Part shown: in pieces, positions 22,501-52,159 of the stretch
Layout of the letters: each line of letters begins with the position of its first letter
How positions within the stretch are numbered: the first letter of the stretch is position 1
DNA from: Pseudomonas alkylphenolica
GTDB taxonomy: Bacteria > Pseudomonadota > Gammaproteobacteria > Pseudomonadales > Pseudomonadaceae
Length of the DNA: 64,000 bases
Assembly: GCF_000746525.1 (NCBI RefSeq)
Contig: NZ_CP009048.1
Location: 2,039,501 to 2,103,500, forward strand
Direction: 5' to 3'
The notes under the pieces: model-generated
The model's database searches: none
The model's input: only the letters and a program-made list of their open reading frames with translations
What the model was told of the DNA's origin: nothing
Position numbers and translations under genes: made by a program

Positions 22501-25337
22501 ACATGGTGCCCGCGCACTGGCAGTTCCTCAGCGTGTTGCCGCTGACCGCCAACGGCAAGCTCGACCGCAAGGCCTTGCCGCGCCCGGACGCGGCGCAATC
22601 GCAACAGGCTTACGTGGCGCCGGTGGGCGAGATCGAGAAGCAAATCGCCGCGATCTGGCAGGAGGTGCTCGGTGTCGAGCAGGTCGGTGGCAACGACAAC
22701 TTCTTCGAGCTCGGCGGTCATTCGTTGCTGGCCACCCAGGTGGTTGCGCGCTGCCGTGACTGCTTGCCTGTTCAGGTGCAATTGCGTGATCTGTTCAGTC
22801 ATCCGCAGCTGGCTGATCTGGCCGCCCACTTGAATGCACAACGGGCACCGTTGGCCAGCCGCTATCCACGGCTGCAGCGCCAGACATTCGTCGGTGAGGC
22901 GCCGCTGTCCTTGGCCCAGCGTCGTTTGTGGGTGGTCGAGCAGCTCTCAGGTGCAGGCGCCGCGTATGGCATGCCGCTGGCCTTGCGCTTGCACGGTGAC
23001 CTGTCGACCGAGCATCTGATGCGCAGCCTGACGCTGATCGTTGCCCGTCACGATGTGCTGCGCACCGCCTACCTGCAGAATGATGATGGCGACCCGGTGG
23101 CGTTGATCCATCCGCAGATCGAGCTGAATGTTCCGCTGGTCGACCTGTCGATGCTGAGCCGGGCGCAGCAGGAGCACCAGGTGGCCGAAGATGCCCTGGC
23201 CAATGCCTGCCTGGCAATCGATCTGGAGCAGGCACCGCTGTGGCGCGCACGTATCCTGCGCCTGTCCGCCGACGAGCATGTGTTGCTGTTCTCCATGCAC
23301 CACATCATCTCCGATGGCTGGTCGATGGGCGTGCTGGTCAACGAACTGGTGACCTTGTATGCCCAGCTGCAACAAGGCCAGGCGCCGCAGCTGGCACCGT
23401 TGCCGATCCAGTATGCCGACTATGCGTGCTGGCAGGTGCAGTTGCAGGACAGCGGTGTGCTGGGCCAGCAGGCCGACTTCTGGCGCACTACCCTGGATGG
23501 CTGCAGCGGTCAGTTGGCCTTGCCCGGCGATTTCCCGCGGCCGGTCCGTGCCAGTCAGGAAGGTGGCCTGGTCTCGTTCGAACTGTCGGCGCCCTTGAGT
23601 CGACGCATCACCGCCATGGCGCGCCAAGCCGGGGTTACGCCCTATGTGGCCTTGCTGACCGCCTTCAGCATGTTCCTGCACCGCGTGTGCGGCAGTGATG
23701 ACCTGGTCATCGGCGCCGACATCGCCGGACGTCATCAGCCGGAGCTGGAAGGTTTGATCGGCTTCTTCGTCAACGTCCTGCCGCTGCGCTCGCAGTTCCC
23801 TGCCAGCAGCAGCTACCGCGAGCGCATGGCCCGCCTGCAAGCGATCACCCTGGATGCGCTCGAACACCAGGACCTGCCGTTCGACCAGATCGTCGAGGCC
23901 GCCGCTGCTCCACGCTTGCCGGGTATGAACCCGCTGGTACAGGTGCTGTTCGTGATGAACAACCTGCCGAGCCGGGCCAGCAGTCTGAGTGGCATACGGG
24001 TCGAGGAACTGCCGCTGACCCAGGTACACAGCAAGTTCGACATGGCGCTGTTCATGAGCGAGCAGGGTGAGTGCCTGAGTGGGGTCTGGCAGTACGCCGC
24101 ATCGCTGTTCAAACAAGAAACCATCGAATCCTTCGTGAAGGCCTGGATTGCCATCCTCGAACAGATTACTGCCGATCAGGCAGCCACAGTGGGAGATATC
24201 GACATGGCTCTAGCCAGCAGCGCAGTGCCACCGGCCAACCCGGGCAAAAAGGACAAGGTCGACAAGTTGGGCAAGTTCCTGAAAAAGGCCGCCAGCCCGG
24301 CTCGTTCTGCCAGCACCAGCGTGCGCGAGTATCGACTGCTACCAGCGCAGAGCTTTCCCTTGGTGATGGAGCCGACGGACCCGGGCGTCGACCTGGTTCA
24401 ATGGGTCAACGAGCATCGTGACGAGATCGAGCGCAAGTTGGTCGAACATGCCGGCATTCTCTTCCGCGGTTTTGACGTCAGTGGCATTGAAGGCTTCGAA
24501 GCCTTTGCCGAGGCGGTCCAGCCGGGGTTGTACGGGCAGTACGGCGACTTGCCGAAGAAGGAAGGCGGCAAGAACACCTACCGTTCCACGCCGTACCCGG
24601 AGCAGAAAATGATCCTGTTCCACAACGAGAGTTCGCACCAGGACCGCTGGCCGCGCAAGCAGATGTTCTACTGCGAGCTGCCTTCACCTGTGGGCGGCGC
24701 GACACCGGTGGTCGATTGCCGGGTCATGTACCGGCAATTGCCGGTGCCGCTGCGCCAGACCCTGGAAGAGAAGGGCCTGCTTTACGTGCGCACCTTCACC
24801 GGCAACCTCGATGTGCCGTGGCAGCACTTCTTCAAGACCGAGGAGCGCAGCGAGGTTGAGGCGCGCTGCCGAGAAAGCGGCATCGAGTGGTCGTGGCTGG
24901 ACGATGACGCCCTGCAGATTCGCACCTGGTGCCCGGCCATCATCAGTCATCCGCATACCGGCGAACGCTCGTTCTTCAACCAGGTGCAGTTGCATCACCC
25001 GTTCTGGCTCGACGCCGATGTGCGCGAAGATTTGTTGGCCCTGTTTGGTAATGATCGCCTGCCGCGAAACGTTTACTACGGAGATGGCAGCCCGATTGCC
25101 GAATCCGACCTGCAGTTGATCGGTGAACTGTACGAAGCCTGTGCGGTGCGCTTTGACTGGAGGAAGGGCGACATCATTCTGCTGGACAACATGCTCGTGG
25201 CCCACGCCCGCGATCCCTATGAGGGACCGCGCAAAATCGTGGTTGCCATGGGTGACATGGTGGAGCGGGTCGCCCTGGCCGAAACACGTCCGCGGGTGAT
25301 CGATCCATCGGCGGACAAGGAGACAATCGACGCATGA
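10587..25337 (+). CDS. Pyoverdine-type NRPS 2: (C-A-T-E)x2, C-A-T, C-hydroxylase
   Basis: A 4916-residue NRPS. Module 1 is C (HHIVADG near 182), A (core near 656), T (LGGDSI near 1045) and E (HHLAVDG near 1226). Module 2 has the same order (about 1693, 2153, 2545, 2726). Module 3 is C (3192), A (3653) and T (LGGHSLL, 4043). All three A domains show DFWNVGMVH, the threonine code, and are nearly identical in DNA. Two intact E domains should give D-allo-Thr twice. A fourth C domain (HHIISDG near 4238) has no A domain after it. It is followed by a TauD/SyrP-type Fe(II)/2-oxoglutarate oxygenase domain with HNE near 4679 and a distal His in AHARDP near 4873. Siderophore hydroxylases of this type hydroxylate carrier-bound Asp; here the likely target is the Asp module on NRPS3. 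The stop overlaps the NRPS3 start as ATGA. Confidence 0.95.
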   Translation: MRNEEQLALVQRFVRLPLAQRKAFLEKLGAKGMSLAQLPIAPVSEGVQSLPLSYAQQRQWFLWKYEPASPAYHIPVALRLRGPLNFDALQAAFNDLVARHAALRTRFVEQQGHALQVIEAQAEVAIERSEGGFDDALDQPQALAAFIEGQTRRLFDLASGPLLRVHLRTLGADDHLLVLTVHHIVADGASMPVMVRELSACYEARSQGQSATLPALPVQYADYALWQRSWMEAGEQQRQLAYWCEQLQGDQPVLELPLDRARPLSRDGRGDSRQVQLPLELLSALRQLAQRQGVSLFVLMMAAFQTLLHRYSGQQEICVGVPFANRNRVETQGLVGFFVNTQILRGRFDSRARFTDVLAQMGQTAIEAQRYQDLPFDLLVEALQPERSTRHNPLFQVMFNYQHDQAAGASGRRFSGLGIEGVQWQNRSAQFDLSLDIVEAEQSLTSSFIFATDVFEAATIERMMQHWQTMLWAIVDRPQRSIGELPMVSAAQQQVIVQGLNPTVASHASQVCLHEQIAAQAARTPQAVALVFEGQQLSYAQLNARANRLAHRLIAAGVGPESRVGLAAERSLELVVGLLAILKAGSAYVPLDPMYPAQRLEYMIQDSGISLLLSQPGLRLPAFDGPCLSLDEDLQGFSDADPQVSMTPDNLAYIIYTSGSTGQPKGALLSHHNVQRLFAATGQWFSFDSRDTWTLFHSYAFDFSVWEIFGALLHGGRLVIVPYLVSRSPEDFHQLLIDEQVTVLNQTPSAFRQLMHVACADSREHSLRAVVFGGEALDVQGLRPWFERFGDAPTRLINMYGITETTVHVTYRPLSWADLDSGAASPIGLPIPDLSWYVLDAELNPVPAGCVGELYVGRAGLARGYLNRGDLSGARFIPDPFGADGGRLYRTGDLARYCADGAVEYIGRLDQQVKIRGFRIELGEIEARLQAMPQVREAVVLAEDGRLLAYVVPTAEEAGLREMLQAQLKADLPDYMVPAHWQFLSVLPLTANGKLDRKALPRPDAAQSQQTYVAPVGEIEKQIAAIWQEVLGVEQVGVNDNFFELGGDSIVSIQVVSRARQAGIRFTPKDLFQHQTVQGLASVAQTGEAAQIVQAAAEGELMLLPIQQQFFQDVVASRHHFNQSVLLQARETLQVPALETALAALWAHHDALRLRFSEERDGWRGRYSDAAAPSDLLWQVTVADAQALEAEGELAQRSLDLSAGPLLRAVLMNLADGSQRLLLVIHHLAVDGVSWRILLEDLHSAYEQACAGQQPLLPARTSSVKAWAERLQQYAREGALAEELVYWREQLHGVVNDWPQCNSQGSLDKRHAASVDTRLDAQATRQLLKEAPAAYRTQVNDLLLTALARVIGQWTGNPHTLLQLEGHGREDLFEDIDLTRTVGWFTSLFPLRLSVCDDLRSSILQVKEQLRALPNKGLGYGVLRHLGNAEQQAALQGMAQGRITFNYLGQFDSSFDAHSNALLRPATEARGSEIGSAAQLANWLSINGQVYGGELTLSWTFSREMFAEATVQALADAFALELRALIAHCCDPAQGGVSPSDFALARLPQTTLDTLPVPAREIDDLYPLSPMQQGMLFHSLYEQAGGDYINQVRVDIHGLDPQRFQQAWQAAVDRHDILRTGFVWEGLEQPLQVVRKQASVAFELIEAPGLGETELDSLAQAHKHGFDLGRDALLRLLLVRTGEHTHHLIYTHHHILMDGWSNAQLLGEVLQHYHGHGLSSTTGRYRDYLAWLQQRDGEAARSFWQSQLNTLDEPVRLAEALLPETLGEGQGDQVHQASDALFQRLQLFARQTRVTLNTVLQGAWLLLLQRYSGKSTVAFGATVAGRPTELNGIERQIGLFINTLPIIESPSAELRLGTWLERLQNLNLALREYEHTPLADLQRWAGFNGQPLFDTNLVFENYPVSQALSASEGTPVSFSGLRSHEQSSFPLTLIVTCDDALRLHLRYQRGLFSETQIATLMVNLEQLLDSLVHASVDTPLGELDMLGDRRQDSLRALNPAVVSHASHVCLHEQIAAQAARTPQAVALVFEGQHLSYAQLNARANRLAHRLIGAGVGPESRVGLAAERSLELVVGLLAILKAGGAYVPLDPMYPAQRLEYMIQDSGISLLLSQPGLNLPVFDGPCLHLDEDLQGYSDANPQVSMSPDNLAYIIYTSGSTGQPKGALLSHHNVQRLFAATGQWFSFDSRDTWTLFHSYAFDFSVWEIFGALLHGGRLVVVPYLVSRSPEDFHQLLIDEQVTVLNQTPSAFRQLMHVACAEAREHSLRAVVFGGEALDVQGLRPWFERFGDAPTRLINMYGITETTVHVTYRPLSWADLDSGAASPIGLPIPDLSWYVLDAELNPVPAGCVGELYVGRAGLARGYLNRGDLSGARFIPDPFGAEGGRLYRTGDLARYCADGAVEYIGRLDQQVKIRGFRIELGEIEARLQAMPQVREAVVLAEDGRLLAYVVPRVEQDGLREVLQAQLKADLPEYMVPAHWQFLSVLPLTANGKLDRKALPRPDAAQSQQAYVAPVGEIEKQIAAIWQEVLGVEQVGVNDNFFELGGDSIVSIQVVSRARQAGIRFTPKDLFQHQTVQGLASVAQTGEAAQIVQAAAEGELVLLPIQQQFFQDVVASRHHFNQSVLLQARETLQVPALETALAALWAHHDALRLRFSEEHDGWRGRYSDAAAPSDLLWQVTVADAQALEAEGELAQRSLDLSAGPLLRAVLMNLADGSQRLLLVIHHLAVDGVSWRILLEDLHSAYEQACAGQQPLLPARTSSVKAWAERLQQYAREGALQEELGYWQSQVQDIDTTLPCDAPDAGLQIRHAGSVHSRLDARLTGQLLQDAPAAYRTQVNDLLLTALARVIARWTGRDEVMVQLEGHGREDLFEDIDLTRTVGWFTSLFPLRLSVAEDLPGSILQVKERLRAVPNKGVGYGVLRHLGSTEQQALLSRMPQPRITFNYLGQFDASFQGQTGAFLPAAEAHGLEVGEDAPLGNWLSVNGQVYGGELSLSWTFSREMFAEATVQALADAFALELRALIAHCCDPAQGGVSPSDFPLAQLSQATLHKLPVPARQIDDLYPLSPMQQGMLFHSLYDQAGGDYINQVRLDIHGLDPQRFEQAWQAALDRHDILRTGFVWEGLEQPLQVVRKQVKVPLRLLDGRPEAALEQYLDRVAQDELNAGFDLAAAPLLRLVLVRNGEGSWHVIYTNHHILMDGWSNARLLGEVLQRYAGDAPPRHPGRYRDYIGWLAAPDVEQDRRFWQAELADLAEPALLVAAVGAGATGDSGYDERHLRLSVEQTAQLAECARALKITVNTLVQGAWAILLQRYLGRDQVVFGATVAGRPTELQGVEEQIGLFINTLPVRFEHTGSTPVQQGLRELQARNLSLREHEHSPLFDIQRWAGQGGEALFDTLMVFENYPVSQALAAGTPSGLRFGEVANREQSHYPLTLVVGLSDQLSVEMRYDRGCFAPGVMDNLVCHLGNLLLSMVRADARTLIGQLDLLGDQRTELIAAMNPAVVSHSTHACLHEQIATQAARTPQAVALVYEGQRLSYAQLNARANRLAHRLIAAGVGPESRVGLAAERSLELVVGLLAILKAGGAYVPLDPMYPAQRLEYMIQDSGISLLLSQPGLNLPVFDGPCLHLDEDLQDYSDADPQVSMSPDNLAYIIYTSGSTGQPKGALLSHHNVQRLFAATGQWFSFDSSDTWTLFHSYAFDFSVWEIFGALLHGGRLVIVPYLVSRSPEDFHQLLIDEQVTVLNQTPSAFRQLMHVACADPREHSLRAVVFGGEALDVQGLRPWFERFGDAPTRLINMYGITETTVHVTYRPLSWADLDSGAASPIGLPIPDLSWYVLDAELNPVPAGCVGELYVGRAGLARGYLNRGDLSGARFIPDPFGAEGGRLYRTGDLARYCADGAVEYIGRLDQQVKIRGFRIELGEIEARLQAMEQVREAVVLAEDGRLLAYVVPSAEQDGLREILQAQLKADLPDYMVPAHWQFLSVLPLTANGKLDRKALPRPDAAQSQQAYVAPVGEIEKQIAAIWQEVLGVEQVGGNDNFFELGGHSLLATQVVARCRDCLPVQVQLRDLFSHPQLADLAAHLNAQRAPLASRYPRLQRQTFVGEAPLSLAQRRLWVVEQLSGAGAAYGMPLALRLHGDLSTEHLMRSLTLIVARHDVLRTAYLQNDDGDPVALIHPQIELNVPLVDLSMLSRAQQEHQVAEDALANACLAIDLEQAPLWRARILRLSADEHVLLFSMHHIISDGWSMGVLVNELVTLYAQLQQGQAPQLAPLPIQYADYACWQVQLQDSGVLGQQADFWRTTLDGCSGQLALPGDFPRPVRASQEGGLVSFELSAPLSRRITAMARQAGVTPYVALLTAFSMFLHRVCGSDDLVIGADIAGRHQPELEGLIGFFVNVLPLRSQFPASSSYRERMARLQAITLDALEHQDLPFDQIVEAAAAPRLPGMNPLVQVLFVMNNLPSRASSLSGIRVEELPLTQVHSKFDMALFMSEQGECLSGVWQYAASLFKQETIESFVKAWIAILEQITADQAATVGDIDMALASSAVPPANPGKKDKVDKLGKFLKKAASPARSASTSVREYRLLPAQSFPLVMEPTDPGVDLVQWVNEHRDEIERKLVEHAGILFRGFDVSGIEGFEAFAEAVQPGLYGQYGDLPKKEGGKNTYRSTPYPEQKMILFHNESSHQDRWPRKQMFYCELPSPVGGATPVVDCRVMYRQLPVPLRQTLEEKGLLYVRTFTGNLDVPWQHFFKTEERSEVEARCRESGIEWSWLDDDALQIRTWCPAIISHPHTGERSFFNQVQLHHPFWLDADVREDLLALFGNDRLPRNVYYGDGSPIAESDLQLIGELYEACAVRFDWRKGDIILLDNMLVAHARDPYEGPRKIVVAMGDMVERVALAETRPRVIDPSADKETIDA

Positions 25338-28300
25338 GCACATTGCTACAGCAGCCCGTAGACACGGGTATGGCGCTGAGCCCGGAGCAGGCCGCCATCC
25401 TCCAGACGCGGCCGGCCTCGTGGGCGGCTGCCGCCCATACCCTGGTCATGAGCTTCGACGGTGTGCTGGATCCGGCGCGCCTGCAGCAGGCGCTGGAACA
25501 GCTGTTGGGCAACCAGCAGGCGCTGGCACTGCAGCTCAAGGAAGTTGTCGGCTACCGAGGCTTGCGCCAGTTCTTCGCGCCTGCCGCCATTGCGCCGTTG
25601 CAGTGGCAGCAGGGACCGGTCGATGAGTCGAGCCTGCAGGCCTGGCTGCAGCAGCCCTTTGATAGCCAGGCGGCGTTGCTGCGCATGGCTGCCTGGCAGG
25701 CACCCCAAGGCGGCACCCTGGCCCTGGCCGTAGCGGCCTGCGCTTGCGACGAAGCGGGCCTGGCGTTGCTCCATGATCAGTTGCTGACGGCCTATCAGGC
25801 CGGTGGCCAGGCGCCTGGAGCCGACGATGAGGCCAGTTTCAGTCAATACCTGCAATGGCGTGCCGAAGTGGCTCAGGACGAGGACGCCGACAGTGCCCGA
25901 GGCTGGTGGCAACAGCAGGCCCGGCAGGCGCATGCGAGCGCCGGGCCGGCGTTGGTCCAGGGGCCGGCTGCGACAGTCACGCAGTCGGGGATCGCCGGTA
26001 TCGCCGAGCTGGCGGAGCGTCTTCAGCAGCCTGCGCAGCGTGTGCTGCAGGCGGCCTGGTACTGGCTGCTGGCGCGGGTCAGCGGGCAGCAGGCGTTCAC
26101 TGTCGCCTGGCAACACGATGGACGTGAGGACTACGCGTACTTTGCCGATTGTGCCGGGGTGTTCAGCCACACATTGCCGTTGAACCTGCACATCGACGCC
26201 GGGGAAACCTTCGGCAATTGGCTTGCGCGCCTGGGTAATGATCTGGACGAACAGATCACCTGGCAAGAGTACTGCCCGGCACCGGCAGCGCCGCTATGGT
26301 TGCCTTTCCGCTATCAATCGCAACTGGCAGCAGTCAGCGGCGATGGGCTGCAGTGGCAAGCCCGATTGCTCGGGGCCGCAGGTGAACAGCGAGGCCTCAC
26401 CTTGCAGGCGCTGCTTGACGATGCCGGTCAGGTCGCCGAACTGCGCCTGCACTATCCGCAACCCTATGCCGGGGCAGCGGCCATGCAGGCGCTGCTGGTG
26501 CAATACCGGACGTTGCTGGAACAACTGCTCGCACAGCCTCAGGGCACTTTCGCGACGATGCACTTGCTGGCACCCGCCGAGCAGCAACGGCTGCTGGCGC
26601 AGGCCTGTGGTGCGCCGTTGGCGCGGGCGGCGCTGCTGGTGCCGCAGGCGATTGCCGATCAGGCCCGGGTGCACCCTGATGCCTTGGCCGTGGTCGAAGG
26701 CGGGCAGCAATGGCGGTATGGCCAGTTAATGGAGCACGCCGAGCGCGTCGCGGCCCGCTTGCAAGAGGCTGGGGTCGGTCGAGGTGATCGGGTCGCCCTG
26801 GCCTTGCCGCGTAGTGCCTCGTGGGTTATCGCTATGCTGGCCGTATGGCGTTGTGGCGCCGCTTATGTTGCGCTCGACCGGCAATGGCCGATCCCGCGCC
26901 AATTGCAGATCATCGACCAGGCTGCGGTCCGTTGCGTGCTGGGCGATGTGCAAGCAGTCGGGGCGTTGGCACAGGCATCGGCACCGCTGCTTGAGCTGGA
27001 GCAGGCGCTAGCGTGTGCCGGTACCTTGCAGCCGGTAGCGGTCGAAGGGCACGACACGGCCTATGTACTGTTCACCTCCGGCTCTTCCGGTAGCCCCAAA
27101 GGGGTGGTGATCGAACACCGGCAGTTGGCCAACTATGTGGCGGCCGCCAGCGAGGCGCTGTCGCTTGAGCAATGCCGGCATTTTGCTTTTGGTTCCAGTG
27201 TGGCCGCTGACTTGGGACACACCAGTCTGTTTGGTGCGTTGTACCAGGGGGCGACGCTGTATGTGGCCGACGACGCGACAATGCAGGATGCCGATGGCTT
27301 TGCCCGCTTTATTGATGCGCACGGCATCGACTGCCTGAAAATAGTGCCTTCACACCTGGCGGCCTTGCTCGAAGCGCAAGCGCCGCGCCTGCCGCAGACC
27401 CTGGTGCTGGGGGGCGAAACTGCGAGCCCGGCATTGCTTGAACGTGTGCTGCAGTTGCGTCCAGACCTGCGTCTGTTCAATCACTATGGTCCGACGGAAG
27501 CCACTGTGGGCGTGATGATTCACCGCATCACTGAGGCCGGGGGCGAGGTGCCTTTGACCCGCGTCCTGGCGAACAATCGTGTGTATGTGCTGGATGAGCA
27601 CGGTCAGTTGTTGCCAAGCGGCATTGACGGTGAGCTGTACATCGGCGGCGACCAGCTTTGCGCGGGCTACCTCAATAGCCCCGAGCAGAGCGCTCAGGCC
27701 TTCATCGACGACCCCTTCAATCCAGGCCAGCGCCTGTACCGTACGGGGGATCGGGCTCGTTACTGCGCTGAAGGGGGCCTCACCTTGCTGGGGCGCATCG
27801 ACCAGCAGATCAAGGTTCGCGGCATTCGTGTGGAGCCTGCGGAAATCGAGGCGTGCCTGCGTCAGGATGAGCAGGTGTCTGATGCCTTGGTACTGATGCA
27901 TCAGGACGAGTTACTGGCCTTTGTGACCTCCAGTGCTGCGGACAGCGCCTTGCCATTGCTGGAGCAGCTACGCGCCCGTTTGCCGCTTGCTCTGGTGCCC
28001 AGCCGGGTGCTGGTGCTCCAGCAATGGCCGCGTCTGGTCAACGGCAAGATCGATCGTCAGGCACTGGTCGGCAATCTGCTGCCTCAGGCCGCCACTGCCT
28101 CCCGAGAAGCGCAGACAGCGCTGGAGCGTTGGTTGGTTGAGCGCATGAGCCAGTTGCTTGGCGCCCGGTCGCTGGGGGTAGAGGAGGATTTCTTTGCCGC
28201 CGGTGGACACTCGCTGCTGGTGATCAAACTGGTGGCGGCGGTGCGCAAGTTGCTGCAGTGCGAGATACCGCCAGCCATCGTCTTTGACCATGCAAGCGCT

Positions 28301-28456
28301 GCACAGTTGGCGCAGGCATTGCTGACGGTAGAGCCGGCAGCGGGGCAGTTCGAACGTCTGGCCCAAGCGCGCTTGCGTCTTGATGGCATGAGTGAGCAGG
28401 AGAAGGCGGACCTTTTGGCCAAGGCGCGGGTGCTCAAGCAAAACCAGTCGGCTTGA
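25334..28456 (+). CDS. NRPS 3: degenerate C, A (Asp), T
   Basis: A 1040-residue single-module NRPS. The N-terminal ~430 residues look like a condensation domain, but the HHxxxDG site reads AACACDE (near 134), so both His are lost and only Asp remains. The A domain (core FTSGSSGSPKG near 578) has pocket residues DLTKVGHVG, the aspartate code. The carrier motif AGGHSLL is near 956, and a charged helical tail that could dock on NRPS4 follows. There is no E or thioesterase. Its start overlaps the NRPS2 stop, implying translational coupling. With the terminal C and hydroxylase domains of NRPS2 it probably forms one split module that inserts beta-hydroxy-aspartate, a common iron ligand in pyoverdines. 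Whether the dead C domain has a structural role is unknown. Confidence 0.93.
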   Translation: MSTLLQQPVDTGMALSPEQAAILQTRPASWAAAAHTLVMSFDGVLDPARLQQALEQLLGNQQALALQLKEVVGYRGLRQFFAPAAIAPLQWQQGPVDESSLQAWLQQPFDSQAALLRMAAWQAPQGGTLALAVAACACDEAGLALLHDQLLTAYQAGGQAPGADDEASFSQYLQWRAEVAQDEDADSARGWWQQQARQAHASAGPALVQGPAATVTQSGIAGIAELAERLQQPAQRVLQAAWYWLLARVSGQQAFTVAWQHDGREDYAYFADCAGVFSHTLPLNLHIDAGETFGNWLARLGNDLDEQITWQEYCPAPAAPLWLPFRYQSQLAAVSGDGLQWQARLLGAAGEQRGLTLQALLDDAGQVAELRLHYPQPYAGAAAMQALLVQYRTLLEQLLAQPQGTFATMHLLAPAEQQRLLAQACGAPLARAALLVPQAIADQARVHPDALAVVEGGQQWRYGQLMEHAERVAARLQEAGVGRGDRVALALPRSASWVIAMLAVWRCGAAYVALDRQWPIPRQLQIIDQAAVRCVLGDVQAVGALAQASAPLLELEQALACAGTLQPVAVEGHDTAYVLFTSGSSGSPKGVVIEHRQLANYVAAASEALSLEQCRHFAFGSSVAADLGHTSLFGALYQGATLYVADDATMQDADGFARFIDAHGIDCLKIVPSHLAALLEAQAPRLPQTLVLGGETASPALLERVLQLRPDLRLFNHYGPTEATVGVMIHRITEAGGEVPLTRVLANNRVYVLDEHGQLLPSGIDGELYIGGDQLCAGYLNSPEQSAQAFIDDPFNPGQRLYRTGDRARYCAEGGLTLLGRIDQQIKVRGIRVEPAEIEACLRQDEQVSDALVLMHQDELLAFVTSSAADSALPLLEQLRARLPLALVPSRVLVLQQWPRLVNGKIDRQALVGNLLPQAATASREAQTALERWLVERMSQLLGARSLGVEEDFFAAGGHSLLVIKLVAAVRKLLQCEIPPAIVFDHASAAQLAQALLTVEPAAGQFERLAQARLRLDGMSEQEKADLLAKARVLKQNQSA

Positions 28457-31839: not shown

Positions 31840-34800
31840 TCAGGCCAAGGCCTGGCAGATTGCGTCAATGACTTCTGGCGAGTACGCCAGGGTTGCGTGA
31901 GTGACCTCGAACCCGCGGCTGCAGGCCACCCGCTGCCGCGTATTCAAGCGTCGCAGGGCCTCGGTGCGCGCCTGAAAGTCCGGGGTGTCGAGCGCCGACC
32001 ACCAGCAATGCGCAGCGACCTGCAACGGCGGGTAGTGGAGGTCTTCGCTGAGCTTTTCCAGGTAGGCATACACCGATTTGCCCAGGGCCACTTCGCGTTC
32101 GGTGCTGACGTTGAGGAATACCGCTCGCGCCTGCTCGGCGCTGATGTCGGCAACGCCCGTTGACCACTGGATGAAGTCTTCGACCACGGTATCGTCGAGC
32201 AGTGGATTGCCCTGTGCCTGGCAATAGTGCGTGGCGGTCTGTGCATGGTTGACGAACAACAGCGAGAAAAACCCGGTCAGCGCTTGCAGCCGCAGCGGCT
32301 GGTCGCTGTTGTCCGTCTCGGTGACTGCCTCGATAGGGGCCGGGCCCTTGTGCTCGACGGTCGGGTCGAGCAGGCCGACGAACGCCACGGTCCGGCCCAG
32401 GTCTTCCAGGTTTTGGGCAATCTGCATCGCCAGCGGCGCGCCCAGGGACCAGCCCAGCAGGTGGAACTCGCCTTCGGGTTGGTCAGCGAGGATCTGCCGG
32501 GTGTAGTCGTCGACCATCTGTTGCCAGCTCGGCCGCGGGCTGTTCGGCTCATTGACGTAGTCATGGAACATCAGGCCCTTGACCCGGATGTGTTCGGCCA
32601 GTGCTGCCGCCAACGGGAAATAGCACAGCGCTGAACCGCCGCCCGGGTGCAGGCAGTACAGCGTCCGAGGCTGTGCTGAGCGGTTGAGGTCGATGATCGC
32701 GCTGCGCTGGCTGCCCTGGCCCTCGAGGTAGGCACACAGCTCACGCAACGACGGTTGCTGGATAAAGGCGTGCAGCGTGAGCTCCACGCCCAGCTCGGCC
32801 TTGATCGCCGACACGGCCACCAGGACTTTCAGCGAATGGCCGCCGAGCTCGAAGAAGTTGGCATCCACCGCGACATGCTCAGGCTCAAGCTCCAGTACCT
32901 GGGCCCAGAGGCGTTGCATGCGCTGCTCGCTGGCCGTGGCCGGCGCGCTGTTGGTCGCGGCCTGGACACGTTCGGGCAACGGCAGGCGGCGCCGGTCGAT
33001 CTTGCCATTGTGAGTCAAGGGCCAGTGTTCAAGCGGGACGATATCGCTGGGGACCATATAGGCCGGCAACTGCTCGGCCAAGCGGCGTTTGAGCGCGGCA
33101 GGATCAGCGTGCTTGAACGATTTGCTGTCGGTGAAACTCGCGTAGGCCAGCAGGCTGTCGGCCTGTGGATGGCGCATGACCAGGGCCTGATGGATGCCAG
33201 GCAAGCTGCACAGACGGCTTTCGATTTCGCCGGCTTCCATGCGCAGCCCGCGGATCTTCAGTTGCTGATCGCTACGGCCGTGGTAGTACAAGGCCGCATC
33301 GCTACCGCGTTCGGCCAGATCACCGGTGCGGTACAGGCGCGCGCCGGGGGCGCCAAAGGGATCGGGGAGGAAGCGTTGTGCGGTCAGGCCGGGCTGATTG
33401 AAGTAACCCAGGGCCAACAGTTCACCGCCCAGGTACAGCTCGCCGCTCAGCTGCTCGGGGAGCTGGCCGAGCATGCTGTCCAGGACGTACGCCTGGCGTG
33501 CGCCCAGCGGCTTGCCGATGGCCAGGCGTGCGCCGTGGACGTCCAGCGGTACGGTCCAGGCCAGCGGGGTAATCACCGCTTCGGTCGGTCCATAGGCATT
33601 GATCAGCCGTTGGCAGCGGATACCGTGCTGCTTGTCGAAATGCTCGCGGCTCCAGCCTTCACCGCCAAGAATGCAGGTCTTGACCTGCACCTTGCGACCC
33701 TGGCTCTGCAGCACCCGCGCGGTCTCGAAGAAGTACGAGGGCGGCAGGTTCAGGCAGGTCACGCCGTGGCGCTCGACGGCATCGGCCAGCTGTTGGCTGG
33801 TCCATCGGTGGGTGTCACCGATCAGCAGGCTGGCACCGCACAGCAGGGGCATGAGGATCTGCTCACTGGCCGCATCGAAGCTGATCGAGGCGAACTGCAG
33901 GCAACGATCCCGGGCGTTCAGCTCGTAGGCCGCGGCGGCACTGAGGCAGTGCCGGGCCACGGCCTGGTGTTGTACGGCAACGCCCTTGGGCAGGCCGGTG
34001 GAGCCGGAGGTATAGATGATGTAGGCCAGTTGCTCCGGCCAGCTGCAGCGCTGGACCGCTGGCAAGGCTTGTGCGGTCAGTGCATCGATCGAGGCGATAT
34101 TCAGGGTCGGGCCAGGGAAGGGCGGTAGTTTGTCGAGGACGGCGGACTCGCTCAGCAGCAGGCTCAGGCCACTGTCTTCGATGATGTGCTGCAGGCGTTC
34201 CCGTGGGTAGCCAGGGTCCAGCGGCACATAGCTGCCGCCGGCCTTGAGGATGCCCAACAGCGCGGCAATCCGCGTGAATGACGGGTTCAGGGCCAGGCCG
34301 ACGCGGCCTTGCGGTGTAAGGCCGAGACTGATCAGGTAGCGGGCAATGTGGTCAGCCTGCTGCAGCAGTTCGCCATAGCTGAGGTGGCCGTGCGCATCGA
34401 CCAGGGCAATGGCATCGGGCGTGCGCCGGGCCTGTTGCTCGAACAGGTCATGGACACAGGCTGGTGCTGCTGGCGTCAGCACCGGAGTTGGCTGCGGCCG
34501 GGTGAGGGTGAGTTCGCCTGCCGGCTGTTGCGCGCTGGCCTGGCCCAAGGCCTGCAGCCAGGCAACGAAATGTCCGGTGATCTGTTCGGCACGTGCGCTG
34601 CTTACGTGATCGAGGCGATGGTGCAGCTTGATCTCCAGGCGCTGTCCCAGGGTGACCGCCACGCTGATCGGGTAATGCGTTTGACCATGGGTGCTGATGT
34701 TGCCGATGTGCAACTGATCGTCGGCTTGCTGTTGCAGGGCTTCGTCCACGGGATAGTTTTCGAACACCAGCAGGGTGTCGAACAGAGGGCCACCGAACAG

Positions 34801-37800
34801 ACGCTGGATTTCGAACAGCGGGCTGTGTTCGTGTTCACGCAGGCTCAGGTTGTCTGCCTGCAGGCTGCGCAACCATTGTGCCAGGGGTTGCTCGGGGCGC
34901 GGCTCGACGACCACCGGCAAGGTGTTGATGAACAAGCCCATCTGCTGATCGGCATGGGCCAGCGAGCTTGGCCGGCCGGCGACCGTGATACCGAACACGA
35001 CGCTGGCCTGTGCGCTGTATTGCTGCAGCAGCAAGGACCAGGCGGCCTGGACCAGGGTATTGACGGTAACCCTGGCGTTGCGCGCGAGTTGCTCCAGTGC
35101 GCGGGTTTGCCCAGCCTCAAGCAGACGCTGGCAGCAACCATGGCCGAGGTCTGCCGGGTGACTGTTGACGGTGGCCGGAGCGAGCAAGGTCGGTTCGTCC
35201 TGGCCGCGCAGGTACTGCTGCCAGAAGAGCCGGTCGGCATCGTGGTCGCGCCCTTGCAGCCAGGCAATGTAGTCCTTGAAGTGCGCCTTGGGCGCGGGCA
35301 CCGGGATGCCGTGATAACGCTGCATCAGCTGCGCGAACAGCTGCGAGGTGCTCCAGCCGTCGAGCAGGATGTGGTGGCTGGTGAACACCAGGTGCCAGCG
35401 CTGGCGGTCTTGCTGCAGGGCGGCCCAGCGCAGCAACGGTGCCTGGCTGAGATCGAAGCCGCGTTCGCGTTCCTGGCGCGCCAACTGCTCGGCACTCAGG
35501 CTGCCCTGGGCATGGCAGGTGAAATCGGCGTTCAGTTGTCGGGTCACCCGTTGCAGCGGTTGCGCCAGGCCATCACCCCAGTGGAAGCTGCTGCGCAGAA
35601 TCGCATGACTGTCCAGAGTGGCTTGCCAGGCACGCTGGAAACGCTCGATGTCGAGACCGTCAACCTCTAGCTGCAACTGTTGCTGGTAGTCACCATGGTC
35701 GGCATTGAGCTGGGCATGGAACAACATGCCTTGTTGCATTGGCGACAACGGATAGAGGTCTTCGAGCTGGCGGGGCGTGTCGATCAGGCGGTCAAGCTGG
35801 GCCTGGGACAGCTGCGCCAGTGGCACGTCGTGGGGCGTTATCGCGCCCTGGTCGGGTGTGCAGCAGTGTTCGATCAACGCGTGCAACTGCTCGCCCAGGG
35901 CGTCGGCCAGTGCCTGGATCGTTGCTGTTTCGAAGGCGGTCTGGCTGAAACACCACACCACACTCAACGTGCCGGCGCGGACTTCGGCGGTAATTTCCAG
36001 ACCGTCGCCCAGCGGCCCATAACTGTCTTGCCGGGCACCGGCCGCTTCGTCGCAAGGGGCGAATAACGCGTCGGCGGCGTCGCTGAAGCGCGCTTGGTAA
36101 TGGCCCAGGTAGTTGAAAGTGACGCGCGGCGTTGGCAGGGACGCGAGGGCTTCGCGGCTGGCGTGATCACCCAGATAGCGCAGGGCACCGAAGCCCAGGC
36201 CGTTGTTGGGGACGCCGCGCAACTGCTCCTTGATGCCTTTGATCGAGTCTGCCAGCGAGGGTGCGGTGCTCAGGCACAGTGGGAACCGCTGGGTGAACCC
36301 GCCCAGGCTGCGCGTCAGGTCGACATCGTCGAACAGGGCATTGCGGCCCGGCTCCTGGAGCTGGAGCAGTACCTGCGGCTGAGCACTCCAGTGGCACAGG
36401 GTGCGGGCCAGCGCGGTCAACAGCAGGTCGTTGGTTCGGGTGCGGTAGGCGGCCGGCGCCTGTTGCAGCAAGCGTTGGGTCTGGTTGCGGTCCAGCCGGG
36501 TGTGAACAAGGACGGTTTGCGGTTCAGTGCAAGGCGTTTGCGCAGGGGCACCGGGCAGGTCGGGGTGGGGGCCCTGCAACTGCTGCTGCCAGAACTCACG
36601 CTCGGCGCTGCCCTCAGGGCTACGGGCGAATTGCTCCAGGCGTTCGCTCCAGTGGCCCATGGCATGGGTCTTGGCCGCCAGCGGTTGGCCAAGGTACGCC
36701 GATTGCAAATCTTCCAGCAGAATTCGCCAGGACACGCTATCGATCACCAGTGAGTGGATCACCAACAGCAGGCGCTGGCTGCCGTCGGCCAGGTCCATGA
36801 GCGCTGCCCGCAACAGCTGACCCTGCTCCAGGTCGAGGCTGTGCCGGGCGCGCTGGAGCGTTGCGCCAACCTCTTCGACCTGCAGGTGCCAGAGCAGGTC
36901 CTGCACCGGTGCGTCGCAATGGCAGGCGCTCGCGTCGGTAAAACGCAGGCGCAGGGCGTCGTGATGGATAAGCAACTGATGCAGCGCCTGGCTCAGGCGC
37001 TGTGCATCGAGCGTGCTGGACGGTTTGAGCAACATCGACTGATTGCAGTGGTTGCGTTGCGCAATGTCCAGTTCGAAGAATGCATGCTGGAACGGCAGCA
37101 GTGGGCTGACACCCCGTAGCGGGCCTTGGTCGATCTGCGCGCGTTGATCGTCTTCGACCACGACCTTGGCCAGGCTTTCGATGGTCTGGTGCTCGAATAC
37201 ATCCTTGGGGCTTAAGTGCAGGCCCAGGCGGCGCGCGCGGCTGACCACCTGGATAGAGATGATCGAGTCGCCACCGAGCTCGAAGAAATTGTCGCTGATG
37301 CCGATCGACTCGCGGCGCAGCACGTCCTGCCAGAGCTGCACCAGCTGTCGTTCGCGTGCGGTACGCGGTGCCAGGTGTTCTCGCTGGATGGCCTCGGGCA
37401 GCGGCAGGGCGCGGCGATCCAGTTTGCCGTTGGGGCTCAGCGGCAGTGCATCGAGCAGGAGGATATGCGCCGGTACCATGTAGTCCGGCAACTGGCTGCG
37501 CAGGGCGCTTTGCAGTTCGCTCACCTGCGAGTCGGCAGCGCCGACCACATAGGCCACCAGTTGCAAACCGGTCAGGCCGGGTTGGGCCAGTACTGCCGCT
37601 TCGCGCAGGCCAGGCTGTTCGAGCAGGCGCGCCTCGATCTCGCCGAGCTCGATGCGCAGGCCGCGGATTTTCACTTGATGGTCGAGGCGTCCGCAGTAGT
37701 CGATAGCACCATCGGTACGGTAGCGGGCCAGGTCGCCGGTGCGGTACAGACGCGCGCCCGGCGTCGGGCTGAACGGGTCGGGTATGAAACGTTCGGCGGT

Positions 37801-40368
37801 CAGCGCCGGACGGCGGTGATACCCACGGGCCAGGCCGCAGCCGCCGAGCAACAGTTCGCCCTGGGTGCCGATGGGCACCGGCCCGAAACTGTGGTCGAGG
37901 ACATGGGTATAGAGGTTGGCGATCGGGTGGCCGATCGGCACGCTGTCCAGGCCTTCGTCGCGGCAAGTCCAGTGGGTGACGTCGATGGCCGCCTCGGTGG
38001 GACCATAGAGGTTGTACAGGCCGGTAGCGGGCAACTTGTCGAAGACGTGATACTGGGCGTCGGCCTGTAGCGCTTCGCCGGAGCAGATGATGCGCGTCAG
38101 CGAGGTGCAGCGCTCGACCCCCGGCTCGTGAATAAACACCTGCAACATCGATGGCACGAAGTGCAAGGTGGTGACCTGGTGGCGTTCGATGGTGGCGATC
38201 AGTTTGTCCGGTTCGCGGTGCTCGCCCGGCGCGGCGATGACCAGGCGCGCCCCCTGGATCAGCGGCCAGAAAAACTCCCAGACCGAGACATCAAAGCTGA
38301 ACGGGGTCTTTTGCAGCACGGTGTCGGCCGCGCTTAGTTGGTAGGCCTGCTGCATCCAGGCCAGGCGGTTGTGCAGGGCCAGGTGACGGTTGCCGGCGCC
38401 CTTGGGCTTGCCGGTGGAGCCGGAGGTGTAGATGACGTAGGCCAGGTGTTCGCCATCGACCTCGACCGCCGGGGCCTGATCGGGCCAGCGGCTGAAATCA
38501 TCGTCCAGTAGCAGCGTCTGGCCGGCGAAAGCAGGCAGCTTGTCTTGCACCTGCTGCTGGGTCAGCAACAGGCCGATGGCGCTGTCGTCGAACATATAGG
38601 CCAGGCGCTCGCCCGGGTATTCCGGGTCCAGCGGCACATAAGCGCCGCCGGCCTTGAGGATGGCGAGCAGACCGATGACCATTTCCAGCGAGCGTTCGGC
38701 GGCAATCCCGACCAACACTTCGGGGCCGACGCCGTGCTGGATCAGGGCGTGGGCCAACTGGTTGGCGCGCTGGTCGAGCTGGCGGTAAGTGAGGCTCTGG
38801 TCGGCGAAGACCAGCGCACAGGCATCGGGGCTTCGCTGTGCCTGTTGCTCGATCAGGCGCTGGACCCGGAACTCGCCGGGGTAGGGCTGCGCGCTCGGGT
38901 TGAGGCCGCGCAGGATTGCCTGTTGCTCGGCAGGGCTGAGCATCGGCAGTTCATCCAGGCGCCTGTCGGGGCCAGCCAACAGCGCCTGCAGCAGGTTAAG
39001 CCAGTGCCGGGCCATGCCGGCGACGGTGGCCGGGCTGAACAGGTCAGTGCAGTATTCCAGGCTCACGGCGATGGCGTCGGGCGCATAGTCCACCTCCAGT
39101 GACAGGTCGAACTTGGCCTGCCGCGAGCCGCCTTCAAGGAACGTCACCGCAAGCTCGCCAAGGTTCAGGGCGGTTGTGCCCGGGGTGCTTACGCGCCAGT
39201 TGAACAGGGTCTGGAACAGCGGATTGGCCAGGCTGCTACGGTGCAGTTCGAGGGATTCGAGAATCAACTCGATGGGGTAGTCGGCATGCTCCAGCGCCGC
39301 CAGGCTGTCGGCCTTGAGGCGGTTGAGCAACTGCAGGCCGGTGCTCTGCGCTGGCAGCTGAGCGCGGTAGACCTGGCTGGTGACAAACAGACCCACCAGT
39401 TGATGGGTTTCGCTACGGGTGCGGGTGGCACTGGGAATGCCCACGGTGAAATCGGTCTGCCCGCTGTAACGCCCCAGCAGCAGTTGCCAGGCCGCCAGCA
39501 GTACCACCATCGGTTGCAATTTGTGGGCACGGCACAGGGCCTGCAATTGCTGGCAGGTGTGCGTGTCCAGTTGCTCCAGGTGATAGCCGGCGACGTGGCG
39601 CTGCGCCGCTTGGCGCGGGTAGTCCAGGGGCAGGGCCAACGGCTGGATTTCGTCGCCCAGGTAGTCACGCCAGTAGCGAGCACTGGCAGCGAACTGCGGG
39701 CTGTCGGGGTAGTGCTGGCGTTGCCAGCGGGCATAGTCGGCGTACTGCTGCGCCGGCACTGGCAGGCTTTGCTCGGTCGGCAGTGCATAGGCCTGGGACA
39801 GGTCGGCGACCAGCAGTGGATTGGACCAGGCATCGGAGACGATATGGTGCAGGGTCAGCAGCAGGAAATGCTGTTGGACTCCGGTCTGCAGCAGTGTTGC
39901 ACGGATCAGTGGTGCCACTTGCAGGTCGAATGGCGTGCTTGCCTGGTCGGCAATGTGTCGTTGCAGCTCGCGCTCCAGCCTGTCGCCGTGCAGATGACTC
40001 AATGGCACGTGCTGCAGTGTGAGGCGTGCATCGGGCTCGATGATTTGTTGCGGCTCGTTGTCGTCCTGGGTAAAGCGCGTGCGCAAGATGGCATGGCGTT
40101 CGATCACCCGGTTCAGCGCACGCTCCAGGCGTTGTGCATCGAGTTGGCCGTCCAGGCGCAGGACGCGCGGCAGGTTGTAGGCGCTGCTCCCCGGATCCAC
40201 TTGCTGCAAGAACCACAGGCGCTGCTGGGCAAATGTCAGTGGCTGCGGCCCTGATAACGTCTCAGCTTGGTCAGCGGTGGTGTCAGGGGCGAAATCGAGG
40301 GGTGATTCGTCTTCGGCCAGCAGCAGGGCCAACAGGTCGTCTTCGAGGCAGGGATCGAGGGTGTGCAT
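31840..40368 (-). CDS. Terminal pyoverdine-type NRPS 4: C-A(Ser)-T-E(degenerate)-C-A-T-TE
   Basis: A 2842-residue final synthetase, PvdD-like in position and in its thioesterase. C1 has HHIVSDA (near 174; the usual Gly is Ala). A1 pocket residues read DVWHISLID, the Ser code. The following domain is epimerase-like, but its HHxxxDG reads HSLVIDS (near 1205), EGHGR reads QEPGR, and GWFTSLFP reads GGFTQRFP. The catalytic second His is lost, so it is probably inactive. C2 (HHILLDG) is of the type that follows epimerase domains. A2 reads DAENIGAIT, an acid-lined pocket fitting a basic or hydroxy-ornithine substrate. The C-terminal thioesterase has GWSLG (Ser near 2641) and an Asp in LLDPTVE. It should release the finished peptide, commonly with cyclo-hydroxyornithine at the end. 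An exact PvdS box lies upstream. Confidence 0.94.
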   Translation of the reverse strand: MHTLDPCLEDDLLALLLAEDESPLDFAPDTTADQAETLSGPQPLTFAQQRLWFLQQVDPGSSAYNLPRVLRLDGQLDAQRLERALNRVIERHAILRTRFTQDDNEPQQIIEPDARLTLQHVPLSHLHGDRLERELQRHIADQASTPFDLQVAPLIRATLLQTGVQQHFLLLTLHHIVSDAWSNPLLVADLSQAYALPTEQSLPVPAQQYADYARWQRQHYPDSPQFAASARYWRDYLGDEIQPLALPLDYPRQAAQRHVAGYHLEQLDTHTCQQLQALCRAHKLQPMVVLLAAWQLLLGRYSGQTDFTVGIPSATRTRSETHQLVGLFVTSQVYRAQLPAQSTGLQLLNRLKADSLAALEHADYPIELILESLELHRSSLANPLFQTLFNWRVSTPGTTALNLGELAVTFLEGGSRQAKFDLSLEVDYAPDAIAVSLEYCTDLFSPATVAGMARHWLNLLQALLAGPDRRLDELPMLSPAEQQAILRGLNPSAQPYPGEFRVQRLIEQQAQRSPDACALVFADQSLTYRQLDQRANQLAHALIQHGVGPEVLVGIAAERSLEMVIGLLAILKAGGAYVPLDPEYPGERLAYMFDDSAIGLLLTQQQVQDKLPAFAGQTLLLDDDFSRWPDQAPAVEVDGEHLAYVIYTSGSTGKPKGAGNRHLALHNRLAWMQQAYQLSAADTVLQKTPFSFDVSVWEFFWPLIQGARLVIAAPGEHREPDKLIATIERHQVTTLHFVPSMLQVFIHEPGVERCTSLTRIICSGEALQADAQYHVFDKLPATGLYNLYGPTEAAIDVTHWTCRDEGLDSVPIGHPIANLYTHVLDHSFGPVPIGTQGELLLGGCGLARGYHRRPALTAERFIPDPFSPTPGARLYRTGDLARYRTDGAIDYCGRLDHQVKIRGLRIELGEIEARLLEQPGLREAAVLAQPGLTGLQLVAYVVGAADSQVSELQSALRSQLPDYMVPAHILLLDALPLSPNGKLDRRALPLPEAIQREHLAPRTARERQLVQLWQDVLRRESIGISDNFFELGGDSIISIQVVSRARRLGLHLSPKDVFEHQTIESLAKVVVEDDQRAQIDQGPLRGVSPLLPFQHAFFELDIAQRNHCNQSMLLKPSSTLDAQRLSQALHQLLIHHDALRLRFTDASACHCDAPVQDLLWHLQVEEVGATLQRARHSLDLEQGQLLRAALMDLADGSQRLLLVIHSLVIDSVSWRILLEDLQSAYLGQPLAAKTHAMGHWSERLEQFARSPEGSAEREFWQQQLQGPHPDLPGAPAQTPCTEPQTVLVHTRLDRNQTQRLLQQAPAAYRTRTNDLLLTALARTLCHWSAQPQVLLQLQEPGRNALFDDVDLTRSLGGFTQRFPLCLSTAPSLADSIKGIKEQLRGVPNNGLGFGALRYLGDHASREALASLPTPRVTFNYLGHYQARFSDAADALFAPCDEAAGARQDSYGPLGDGLEITAEVRAGTLSVVWCFSQTAFETATIQALADALGEQLHALIEHCCTPDQGAITPHDVPLAQLSQAQLDRLIDTPRQLEDLYPLSPMQQGMLFHAQLNADHGDYQQQLQLEVDGLDIERFQRAWQATLDSHAILRSSFHWGDGLAQPLQRVTRQLNADFTCHAQGSLSAEQLARQERERGFDLSQAPLLRWAALQQDRQRWHLVFTSHHILLDGWSTSQLFAQLMQRYHGIPVPAPKAHFKDYIAWLQGRDHDADRLFWQQYLRGQDEPTLLAPATVNSHPADLGHGCCQRLLEAGQTRALEQLARNARVTVNTLVQAAWSLLLQQYSAQASVVFGITVAGRPSSLAHADQQMGLFINTLPVVVEPRPEQPLAQWLRSLQADNLSLREHEHSPLFEIQRLFGGPLFDTLLVFENYPVDEALQQQADDQLHIGNISTHGQTHYPISVAVTLGQRLEIKLHHRLDHVSSARAEQITGHFVAWLQALGQASAQQPAGELTLTRPQPTPVLTPAAPACVHDLFEQQARRTPDAIALVDAHGHLSYGELLQQADHIARYLISLGLTPQGRVGLALNPSFTRIAALLGILKAGGSYVPLDPGYPRERLQHIIEDSGLSLLLSESAVLDKLPPFPGPTLNIASIDALTAQALPAVQRCSWPEQLAYIIYTSGSTGLPKGVAVQHQAVARHCLSAAAAYELNARDRCLQFASISFDAASEQILMPLLCGASLLIGDTHRWTSQQLADAVERHGVTCLNLPPSYFFETARVLQSQGRKVQVKTCILGGEGWSREHFDKQHGIRCQRLINAYGPTEAVITPLAWTVPLDVHGARLAIGKPLGARQAYVLDSMLGQLPEQLSGELYLGGELLALGYFNQPGLTAQRFLPDPFGAPGARLYRTGDLAERGSDAALYYHGRSDQQLKIRGLRMEAGEIESRLCSLPGIHQALVMRHPQADSLLAYASFTDSKSFKHADPAALKRRLAEQLPAYMVPSDIVPLEHWPLTHNGKIDRRRLPLPERVQAATNSAPATASEQRMQRLWAQVLELEPEHVAVDANFFELGGHSLKVLVAVSAIKAELGVELTLHAFIQQPSLRELCAYLEGQGSQRSAIIDLNRSAQPRTLYCLHPGGGSALCYFPLAAALAEHIRVKGLMFHDYVNEPNSPRPSWQQMVDDYTRQILADQPEGEFHLLGWSLGAPLAMQIAQNLEDLGRTVAFVGLLDPTVEHKGPAPIEAVTETDNSDQPLRLQALTGFFSLLFVNHAQTATHYCQAQGNPLLDDTVVEDFIQWSTGVADISAEQARAVFLNVSTEREVALGKSVYAYLEKLSEDLHYPPLQVAAHCWWSALDTPDFQARTEALRRLNTRQRVACSRGFEVTHATLAYSPEVIDAICQALA

Positions 40369-50675: not shown

Positions 50676-50860
50676 GTTTCGTATCTCCTGATGCTGTAAA
50701 AAATCCTGCCGTCGATCTTTTTCCATACCCCCTCCGGGATCACGCCGCGGCTGCGCTTCCCCTCCAGGGCTCTTTGGGTTGTGCCGATCAGTTCCGCCAT
50801 TCGCTTTTCCGGAACTTTGTCGGACGCATAGGTAATCGGCTGCCTTTCTTCGTCTTGCAT
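50516..50860 (-). CDS. xis: Excisionase-like phage protein
   Basis: About 114 residues. The start at 50860 has GGAG 6 bases upstream; a longer frame to 50881 is possible. The N-terminal half contains a winged-helix-like stretch (KRMAELIGTTQRALEGKR, then [20 protein letters not shown]) typical of small excisionases in Pseudomonas prophages. A Ser/Ala-rich basic tail is read in a different frame over the first 160 bp of int. It should bind near attL and steer Int to excision. Confidence 0.7.
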   Translation of the reverse strand: MQDEERQPITYASDKVPEKRMAELIGTTQRALEGKRSRGVIPEGVWKKIDGRIFYSIRRYETWLEGEWGYPLESSSSASQSASVLLSTVNVDPRLSRIHKPPRGSRRQPTYALK

Positions 50861-50902
50861 GATTGTCTCCACGCCGCGCATGGCGGCAGAGGTGGGGAGG
50901 GG

Positions 50903-51226: not shown

Positions 51227-51300
51227 GGCAATAGCTCTCCATGCCCGCGCTGCAGGCTGTAGAATCGTTGGAAATTTATTAATGAATCTGAGGAGTTAGG

Positions 51301-51480: not shown

Positions 51481-51528
51481 GATCTCCCTTCAGTTCTCGG
51501 TAGGCTTGAGTTCTTGTAGGGGGAGGGG

Positions 51529-51711: not shown

Positions 51712-51776
51712 GGCCTCGGCCCCTTCCGGATCATCCAGGCCATGTAGAGCGGGGCGGCGATGGGTAGGAGGATCAT
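51708..51776 (-). CDS. Possible 22-residue hydrophobic peptide
   Basis: ATG at 51776 overlaps the stop of the upstream gene (ATGA), and its own stop overlaps the Lar-like start (ATGA). It encodes MILLPIAAPLYMAWM and a basic tail. Double overlap makes a coupled three-gene chain plausible, but the size is marginal and it may be only a re-initiation bridge. Confidence 0.35.
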   Translation of the reverse strand: MILLPIAAPLYMAWMIRKGPRP

Positions 51777-52156: not shown

Positions 52157-52159
52157 GAC

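Follow-up and report, generated by a model that had tools for sequence, protein, structure and literature searches.

Several nonribosomal peptide synthetases (NRPSs) are known or proposed to carry epimerisation (E) domains that no longer epimerise. The linear gramicidin synthetase LgrA has an inactive E domain after PCP2 (PMC8150014). In module 8 of the diperamycin synthetase the HHxxxDG motif of the E domain is lost and inactivity has been suggested, and likewise in the related Art cluster (PMC10888640). Of two explanations offered for an L-Leu in a Brevibacillus peptide, one is an inactive E domain (PMC3940840). The open-licence literature that we searched, mostly without full texts, yielded no inactive E domain in a pyoverdine synthetase and no truncated E domain. 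The case reported here is the E domain in the Ser-type module of NRPS4, the terminal synthetase encoded in a 64-kb window (the whole stretch of DNA analysed). The window belongs to a 5.76-Mb Pseudomonas genome and carries its side-chain locus for a pyoverdine-type siderophore. From its sequence, this domain is very probably a dead and eroding remnant: the Ser would stay in the L configuration, a putative gate residue of the next condensation (C) domain, C2, has changed from acidic to Gly, and a pyoverdine with L-Ser is predicted.

The C domain downstream of an E domain matters to this reading. Post-epimerase (DCL) domains have a small residue in place of Arg in the acceptor channel (PMC8097023), and dual C/E domains have an extra N-terminal HH[I/L]xxxxGD motif (PMC9229766). 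On what makes a C domain require a D donor, a recent review sees no clear conclusions so far; according to the same review, Peng et al. 2024 changed a Glu in a C-domain pocket to Leu and so made the domain prefer an L over a D donor (PMC11546977). Members of the C superfamily may also lack the catalytic motif altogether, as do the X domains that recruit P450 enzymes (PMC8949500).

Degenerate motifs and erosion of the NRPS4 epimerisation domain

A first-pass annotation had named three degenerate motifs in NRPS4, and all three are present at the motif sites (Table 1). The interval it assigned, 36330..37060, holds HSLVIDS and QEPGR but not GGFTQRFP, and the whole domain extends over 35725-37116. 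Both the catalytic second His of HHxxxDG and the catalytic Glu of EGHGR are absent; the first H and the D of HHxxxDG are still present. As also claimed, the one E domain of NRPS1 and the two of NRPS2 are intact, with HHLVIDG or HHLAVDG, EGHGR and GWFTSLFP. Intact motifs (HHLVVDG, EGHGR, GWFTSAYP) are likewise seen in a PvdL-like synthetase found elsewhere in the same genome by genome search, an open frame of 4358 codons that we take to be PvdL from its size.

The NRPS4 domain belongs to the E subfamily by sequence and by fold, and the expectation that a standard caller would report it is borne out by NCBIfam model TIGR01720 (NRPS-para261, presumably an E-type model), at 132.9 bits against a cut-off of 74.2. 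Across 211 non-redundant intact E domains, 113 of the alignment columns that NRPS4 also covers are conserved to 95% or more, and the NRPS4 domain deviates at 12 of them. The deviations comprise 11 of the 35 columns in five core E motifs and 1 of the 78 elsewhere (Fisher p = 7e-6, an optimistic value because the motif borders were set after the deviating columns were known). GC content at third positions is like that of the flanking domains.

Such losses are rare. Homologue proteins, window included, contain 567 E domains over 100 bits, some of them duplicates. Both catalytic positions are covered in 565, and six of these lack one or both catalytic residues: NRPS4, P0020, P0021, P0022, P0033 and P0252. 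The remaining two are the truncated domains of P0123 and P0124. Among Ser-type modules with an E domain (n=160), only four, all of the NRPS4 lineage, are affected. The 29 other loci that best match the C-terminal part of NRPS4, taken from the 304 of 398 genomes with a match to that part, have E domains intact at these motifs in 30 of 30 cases. An E-domain tree that groups the NRPS4 domain with other degenerate E domains (support 0.89) was taken to reflect long-branch attraction and was not used.

Close relatives were sought with the C-terminal part of NRPS4. Among the best 120 of 2727 matches these are P0020 (99% identity), P0123 (82%) and P0124 (81%, from Pseudomonas sp. BJa5), with the others listed at 35-45%. 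P0020, which has 6 members and comes from other data, shows the same degenerate motifs, so those of NRPS4 are not a sequencing error. P0123 and P0124 have lost the N-terminal lobe with the HHxxxDG site by an in-frame deletion (Table 1), and across residues 1217-1300 a further 7 positions are missing in P0123 and 25 in P0124. Relative to intact motifs, the two share E1338Q and carry H1340P/T and W1357H/N. In all four proteins Gln stands in place of the catalytic Glu, and neither the His of EGHGR nor the Trp of GWFT is left.

What is left of the E domain in P0123 and P0124 is 59-61% identical to NRPS4, versus 79-93% for C1, A1, T1, C2, A2, T2 and TE; its best kept parts, the last 60 residues and residues 1371-1417, reach 77-88%. 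This is unusual for intact E domains at this distance. As a control we compared intact E domains whose next C domains are 75-83% identical; the 912 pairs are drawn from 208 domains and are therefore not independent. Their median E identity is 0.81 and the minimum 0.577, the eight lowest pairs all involving P0119_1104; the NRPS4-P0124 value, 0.573, is under all 912, and the NRPS4-P0123 value, 0.597, falls in the lowest 2.2%. In a second control, P0233, at a similar distance, identity is 82.5-83.3%, without gaps, for the two intact E domains of NRPS2 and 79-85% for the adjoining C domains. The remaining E lobe of P0124 is predicted to fold (mean pLDDT 78.6).

The alignment of homologues that the first-pass annotation had proposed for dating the decay thus gives an order of events. 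Loss of catalysis preceded loss of the N-terminal lobe, because Gln for the catalytic Glu is common to all four proteins and the deletion is found only in P0123 and P0124. Since the Glu-to-Gln change is shared and the deletion is in frame, with the other domains conserved, the E domain is an old, eroding remnant.

The downstream condensation domain and its putative gate residue

C2 had been called a post-epimerase domain. By tree and by log-odds score the call stands, as C2 groups with DCL domains; the acidic residue typical of the class is lost, and Gly takes its place as it does after other dead or deleted E domains. The DCL score is 558 for C2, 467 for P0123 and 470 for P0124; all 132 reference DCL domains score higher (minimum 593), and reference LCL and start domains have a median of -1487, a 95th percentile of 131 and a maximum of 503. 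In our own reading, the small acceptor-channel residue corresponds to the QQGM position, which across the set is Gly in 134/136 DCL domains and Arg in 40/53 LCL and 67/70 start domains. C2 as a dual condensation/epimerisation domain was rejected: it reads AQLNADHGD, with both His absent.

The acidic residue in question is that of xExTxYP, a mark of Pseudomonas DCL domains; C2 has Gly1895 instead. This gate column first drew notice because the other DCL domains of the window have Glu there, whereas C2 of the four NRPS4 orthologues has Gly, as do three C domains that follow further degenerate E domains. It was tested on 538 filtered pairs of an E domain (whole or remnant) and the next C domain from the protein set. 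After an intact E domain the residue is acidic in 516 of 523 C domains (Glu 428, Asp 88) and never Gly. After a dead full-length E domain it is Gly in 6/6, and after an eroded one in 9/9 (P0123, P0124, P0258, P0263, P0267, P0288, P0289, P0292, P0295), five of which, P0263, P0288, P0289, P0292 and P0295, are short C-terminal stubs. No other column contrasts intact with dead or eroded E domains so strongly. Where no E domain precedes, Gly is the commonest residue in internal C domains (137/314) and rare in first C domains (2/327), which mostly have Arg and His. C domains without a called E domain but with a positive DCL score have Gly in all but two of those listed; the two, P0287 and P0138, have Glu. 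Both are edge cases: in P0287 a 677-bit E domain ends 127 residues upstream, past the 60-residue limit, and the P0138 record starts inside the C domain.

In a single C-domain tree of 304 leaves, built with the gate column masked, every C domain that follows an E domain falls within a clade whose minimum size is 180 leaves. It comprises 147 with an intact E domain and an acid, 26 without a working E domain and with Gly, 5 with an intact E domain and another residue, and the same 2 edge cases, labelled E-less but acidic. Parsimony places 8 switches between acid and Gly, 8/8 of them on branches where the E state changes, and the result is the same in 300 random choices among ties. Three of the eight are regains; the five losses fall in the NRPS4 lineage, in P0263, in P0252, in a group of nine and in a deep clade of 41. 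Support is modest on some switch branches (0.88 for the group of nine).

A fresh set was drawn from 60 regions of Pseudomonas genomes chosen regardless of the gate residue, and locus L009 (Pseudomonas shirazensis) was scanned as well. Twelve C domains whose E domain is cut by the end of the locus or frame were left out (11 from Pseudomonas, with Glu 10 and Thr 1, and one other with Val). After intact E domains in Pseudomonas the residue is acidic in 94/99 (Glu 88, Asp 6), and 62 of these 99 C domains are less than 90% identical to the first set. Gly after an intact E domain occurs in none of the sets.

Other degenerate E domains were seen in passing. In P0252 (Pseudomonas proteolytica), residues 4128-4555 form one that directly precedes the final C domain; both its His and its Glu site are gone, and the gate is Gly. 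What seems to be the same middle module is found in two states, with a dead full-length E domain (P0021, P0022, P0033) or with the E domain nearly all deleted (P0288, P0289, P0292, P0295); in both, the next C domain reads GKSIGHGVTNVPMDL at the gate. The code DLWNNALTY, which we take to mean Gly or Ala, is found in the modules of P0021, P0022, P0252 and, with one gap, P0033. That degenerate E domains elsewhere mark Gly modules was set aside as only a lead: codes of DLWNNAL type accompany 78 of the 567 E domains, and 74 of these have both catalytic residues. In P0030 (residues 1113-1713) an E domain (profile 1-321) runs straight into the middle of a C domain (C profile 144-425), which is an internal deletion or an assembly error.

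Organisation of NRPS4 and its locus

Open reading frames and Pfam matches assign to the locus four NRPS genes, a TonB receptor, an ornithine/lysine monooxygenase and an ABC transporter. The features of NRPS4 are collected in Table 1.

Table 1. Features of NRPS4, with positions counted from the first nucleotide of the window
Feature	Residues	Position	Strand	Basis
NRPS4, terminal pyoverdine synthetase, 2842 aa, C-A(Ser)-T-E(degenerate)-C-A-T-TE		31840..40368	minus	open reading frame, Pfam, domain scan, genome search
C1 condensation domain, LCL/start type, HHIVSDA	44-486	38911..40239	minus	motif and domain scan
A1 adenylation domain, code DVWHISLID	507-990	37399..38850	minus	Pfam, code extraction
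T1 carrier domain, GGDSI motif	1005-1075	37144..37356	minus	Pfam, motif
Degenerate epimerisation domain (borders approximate)	1085-1548	35725..37116	minus	domain scan
Part of the E domain deleted in frame in P0123 and P0124, N-terminal lobe with HHxxxDG site	1089-1216	36721..37104	minus	alignment
HSLVIDS, degenerate HHxxxDG, catalytic second His gone	1205	36736..36756	minus	motif scan
QEPGR, degenerate EGHGR, catalytic Glu changed to Gln	1338	36343..36357	minus	motif scan
GGFTQRFP, degenerate GWFTSLFP	1356	36280..36303	minus	motif scan
C2 condensation domain, DCL-type by sequence, HHILLDG intact	1541-1965	34474..35748	minus	tree, score, motif
Gly1895 of C2 (THGQTHYP), a position that is mostly acidic where an intact E domain precedes	1895	34684..34686	minus	place from residue number; His1894 at 34687-34689
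A2 adenylation domain	1975-2464	32977..34446	minus	Pfam
TE thioesterase	2567-2842	31843..32670	minus	Pfam

We take DVWHISLID to be a Ser code. The code positions of A2 give residues D,A,E..A,I,T, and from its place before TE its substrate is presumed to be hydroxyornithine. C1 reads HHIVSDA against HHxxxDG (Gly to Ala), and HHIVCDA in P0123 and P0124.

Some neighbouring features were recorded in their own right. NRPS2 (10587-25337) has three near-identical Thr-type modules, with A domains 95-96% identical in protein and 91-93% in DNA, which suggests a recent internal duplication. At its C-terminus (24225-25334) a TauD-type dioxygenase (156 bits) follows a C domain, and NRPS3 starts (25334-28456) with a degenerate C domain without HHxxxDG, presumably of the interface-type family, and then an Asp-type A domain; the arrangement resembles a module for hydroxy-aspartate that includes an interface-type domain. 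At 49482-61308, a phage-type integrase, an S24/HTH repressor, a KilAC antirepressor and a lambda-P-like replication gene look like a prophage adjoining the pvd locus.

Interpretation and relation to known systems

A dead E domain and an L-Ser product, as first predicted, have the best support: neither catalytic residue is left, orthologues have deleted the HHxxxDG part, and the synthetase is kept. The catalytic Glu was lost before the known NRPS4 lineages split, because the Glu-to-Gln change is common to them; the BJa5-type branch then underwent the in-frame deletion of the N-terminal lobe and some smaller deletions, while the rest of the synthetase stayed conserved and presumably working. A1 would load L-Ser, which would escape epimerisation and stay L on the carrier. 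C2 would accept this donor since its acidic residue is now Gly, the gate role being suggested by co-evolution, so that an L-Ser donor may well be compatible with a DCL-type C2; Gly1895 would be the permissive change. The predicted product is a pyoverdine with L-Ser beside a C-terminal hydroxyornithine-type residue, and in the source genome the E domain is now probably an inert folded spacer.

A broader proposal is put forward tentatively, at somewhat less than an even chance. A single residue of the post-epimerase C domain in Pseudomonas siderophore synthetases may act as a stereochemical gate for the donor, where a one-codon switch between Glu/Asp and Gly would permit an L or achiral donor and free the upstream E domain from selection. 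Such switches would have happened repeatedly and in both directions, with NRPS4 and its half-deleted orthologues as snapshots of one release in a product-changing Ser module. D or L is commonly predicted from the presence of an E domain, and the NRPS4 locus would be called D-Ser; the gate residue offers a quick genomic check for false D calls in Pseudomonas, and a testable candidate for the D-donor demand of C domains. The graded series (dead, half deleted, stub) illustrates how a siderophore stereocentre can change without loss of the assembly line.

Several observations weigh against these readings. The E domain is full length and retains 101 of the 113 highly conserved positions, and C2 has the Gly of post-epimerase type (QQGMLF). 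Between NRPS4 and P0020 the second half of the E domain is 97.5% identical and its N-terminal part 100%, with other domains at 97.8-100%, so decay is not visible within the species; this argues against fast present decay, or reflects just few differences. The gate column was chosen by eye from 30 contrasting columns before it was tested, and the 15 cases with Gly do not represent as many independent events. Non-acidic residues follow intact E domains in 7 of the 523 first-set cases (Val 4, Thr 2, Gln 1) and, as Thr, in 5 of the 99 fresh Pseudomonas cases. Fresh Pseudomonas stubs number only two, L154 with Gly and L123 with Asp; L123 (G015) has a stub-like E end (profile 399-471, 46 bits) and is the one Pseudomonas case counter to the Gly rule. 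In 40 non-Pseudomonas loci the residue after an intact E domain is acidic in 23/56 (Glu 23; Ser 17, Thr 16) and never Gly, and 9/9 stub-like cases in other genera have Asp. The acid is therefore a Pseudomonas feature and not a law, and as a universal mark of a working upstream E domain it was rejected, given the non-acidic cases in the first set, the fresh Pseudomonas set and the other genera. The dead-E side of the Gly rule comes mainly from the first set.

The intact frame, the retained positions and the confident E fold would also suit a domain that is no longer catalytic but is kept for a new job, for instance to bring in a tailoring enzyme or to hold the carrier in place, in the manner of X domains and of siderophore interface domains, which are C-superfamily domains without the catalytic motif. 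The domain changes no faster than its neighbours between the source strain and P0020, its best kept segments persist in the orthologues, and the lobe left in P0124 is predicted to fold. A new job is nonetheless unlikely: the orthologues have dropped a whole lobe, what is left is the fastest-changing domain of the protein, fold matches place E domains first, and the hydroxylase candidate is fused to NRPS2 and followed by an Asp-type module with a degenerate C domain of its own.

Slightly less probable still is that D-Ser persists in the product, through residual activity of the E domain, epimerising activity of C2 or loading of free D-Ser. The overall DCL type of C2, its QQGM glycine, and the first H and the D that survive in HHxxxDG would fit; against this stand the loss of both catalytic residues, orthologues without the N-terminal lobe, the lack of the dual-domain motif in C2, and the Gly that replaces its acid. 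An artefact of sequencing or assembly, or a cluster that is dead as a whole, can be regarded as highly improbable, and nothing in the data spoke for either. The same motifs occur in P0020 from another source, the four NRPS frames and the receptor, PvdA-like and ABC genes are all open, and third-position GC in the E domain matches the flanking domains. Loss of epimerisation in a maintained synthetase is left as the preferred account.

Compared with described systems, C2 resembles post-epimerase domains in its tree position, its score and its QQGM glycine, and differs in having Gly at 1895 for Glu/Asp and a score under all references. The C-domain change of Peng et al. 2024, compared by description only, likewise removes one pocket Glu and turns preference from D to L, as we infer for C2; that change was engineered and to Leu, whereas the one in C2 is natural and to Gly. 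X and interface domains are kept for recruitment, whereas the NRPS4 E domain is being deleted in relatives. Like NRPS4, LgrA keeps an inactive E domain after a carrier domain. The LgrA residue is reportedly glycine, with no stereochemistry at stake; in NRPS4 it is Ser, and the LgrA passage describes no graded erosion series. Module 8 of the diperamycin synthetase shares the loss of HHxxxDG, but its residue is described as glycine, so nothing is lost there, whereas the NRPS4 module is Ser-type and its predicted product changes. An achiral glycine module of the LgrA or diperamycin kind is thus not what NRPS4 has, its A1 code being taken as Ser-type. The NRPS4 E domain is a variant of the known inactive E domains, in that it lies in a Ser module, its erosion can be followed in stages among relatives, and a residue of the C domain behind it switches along with the E state.
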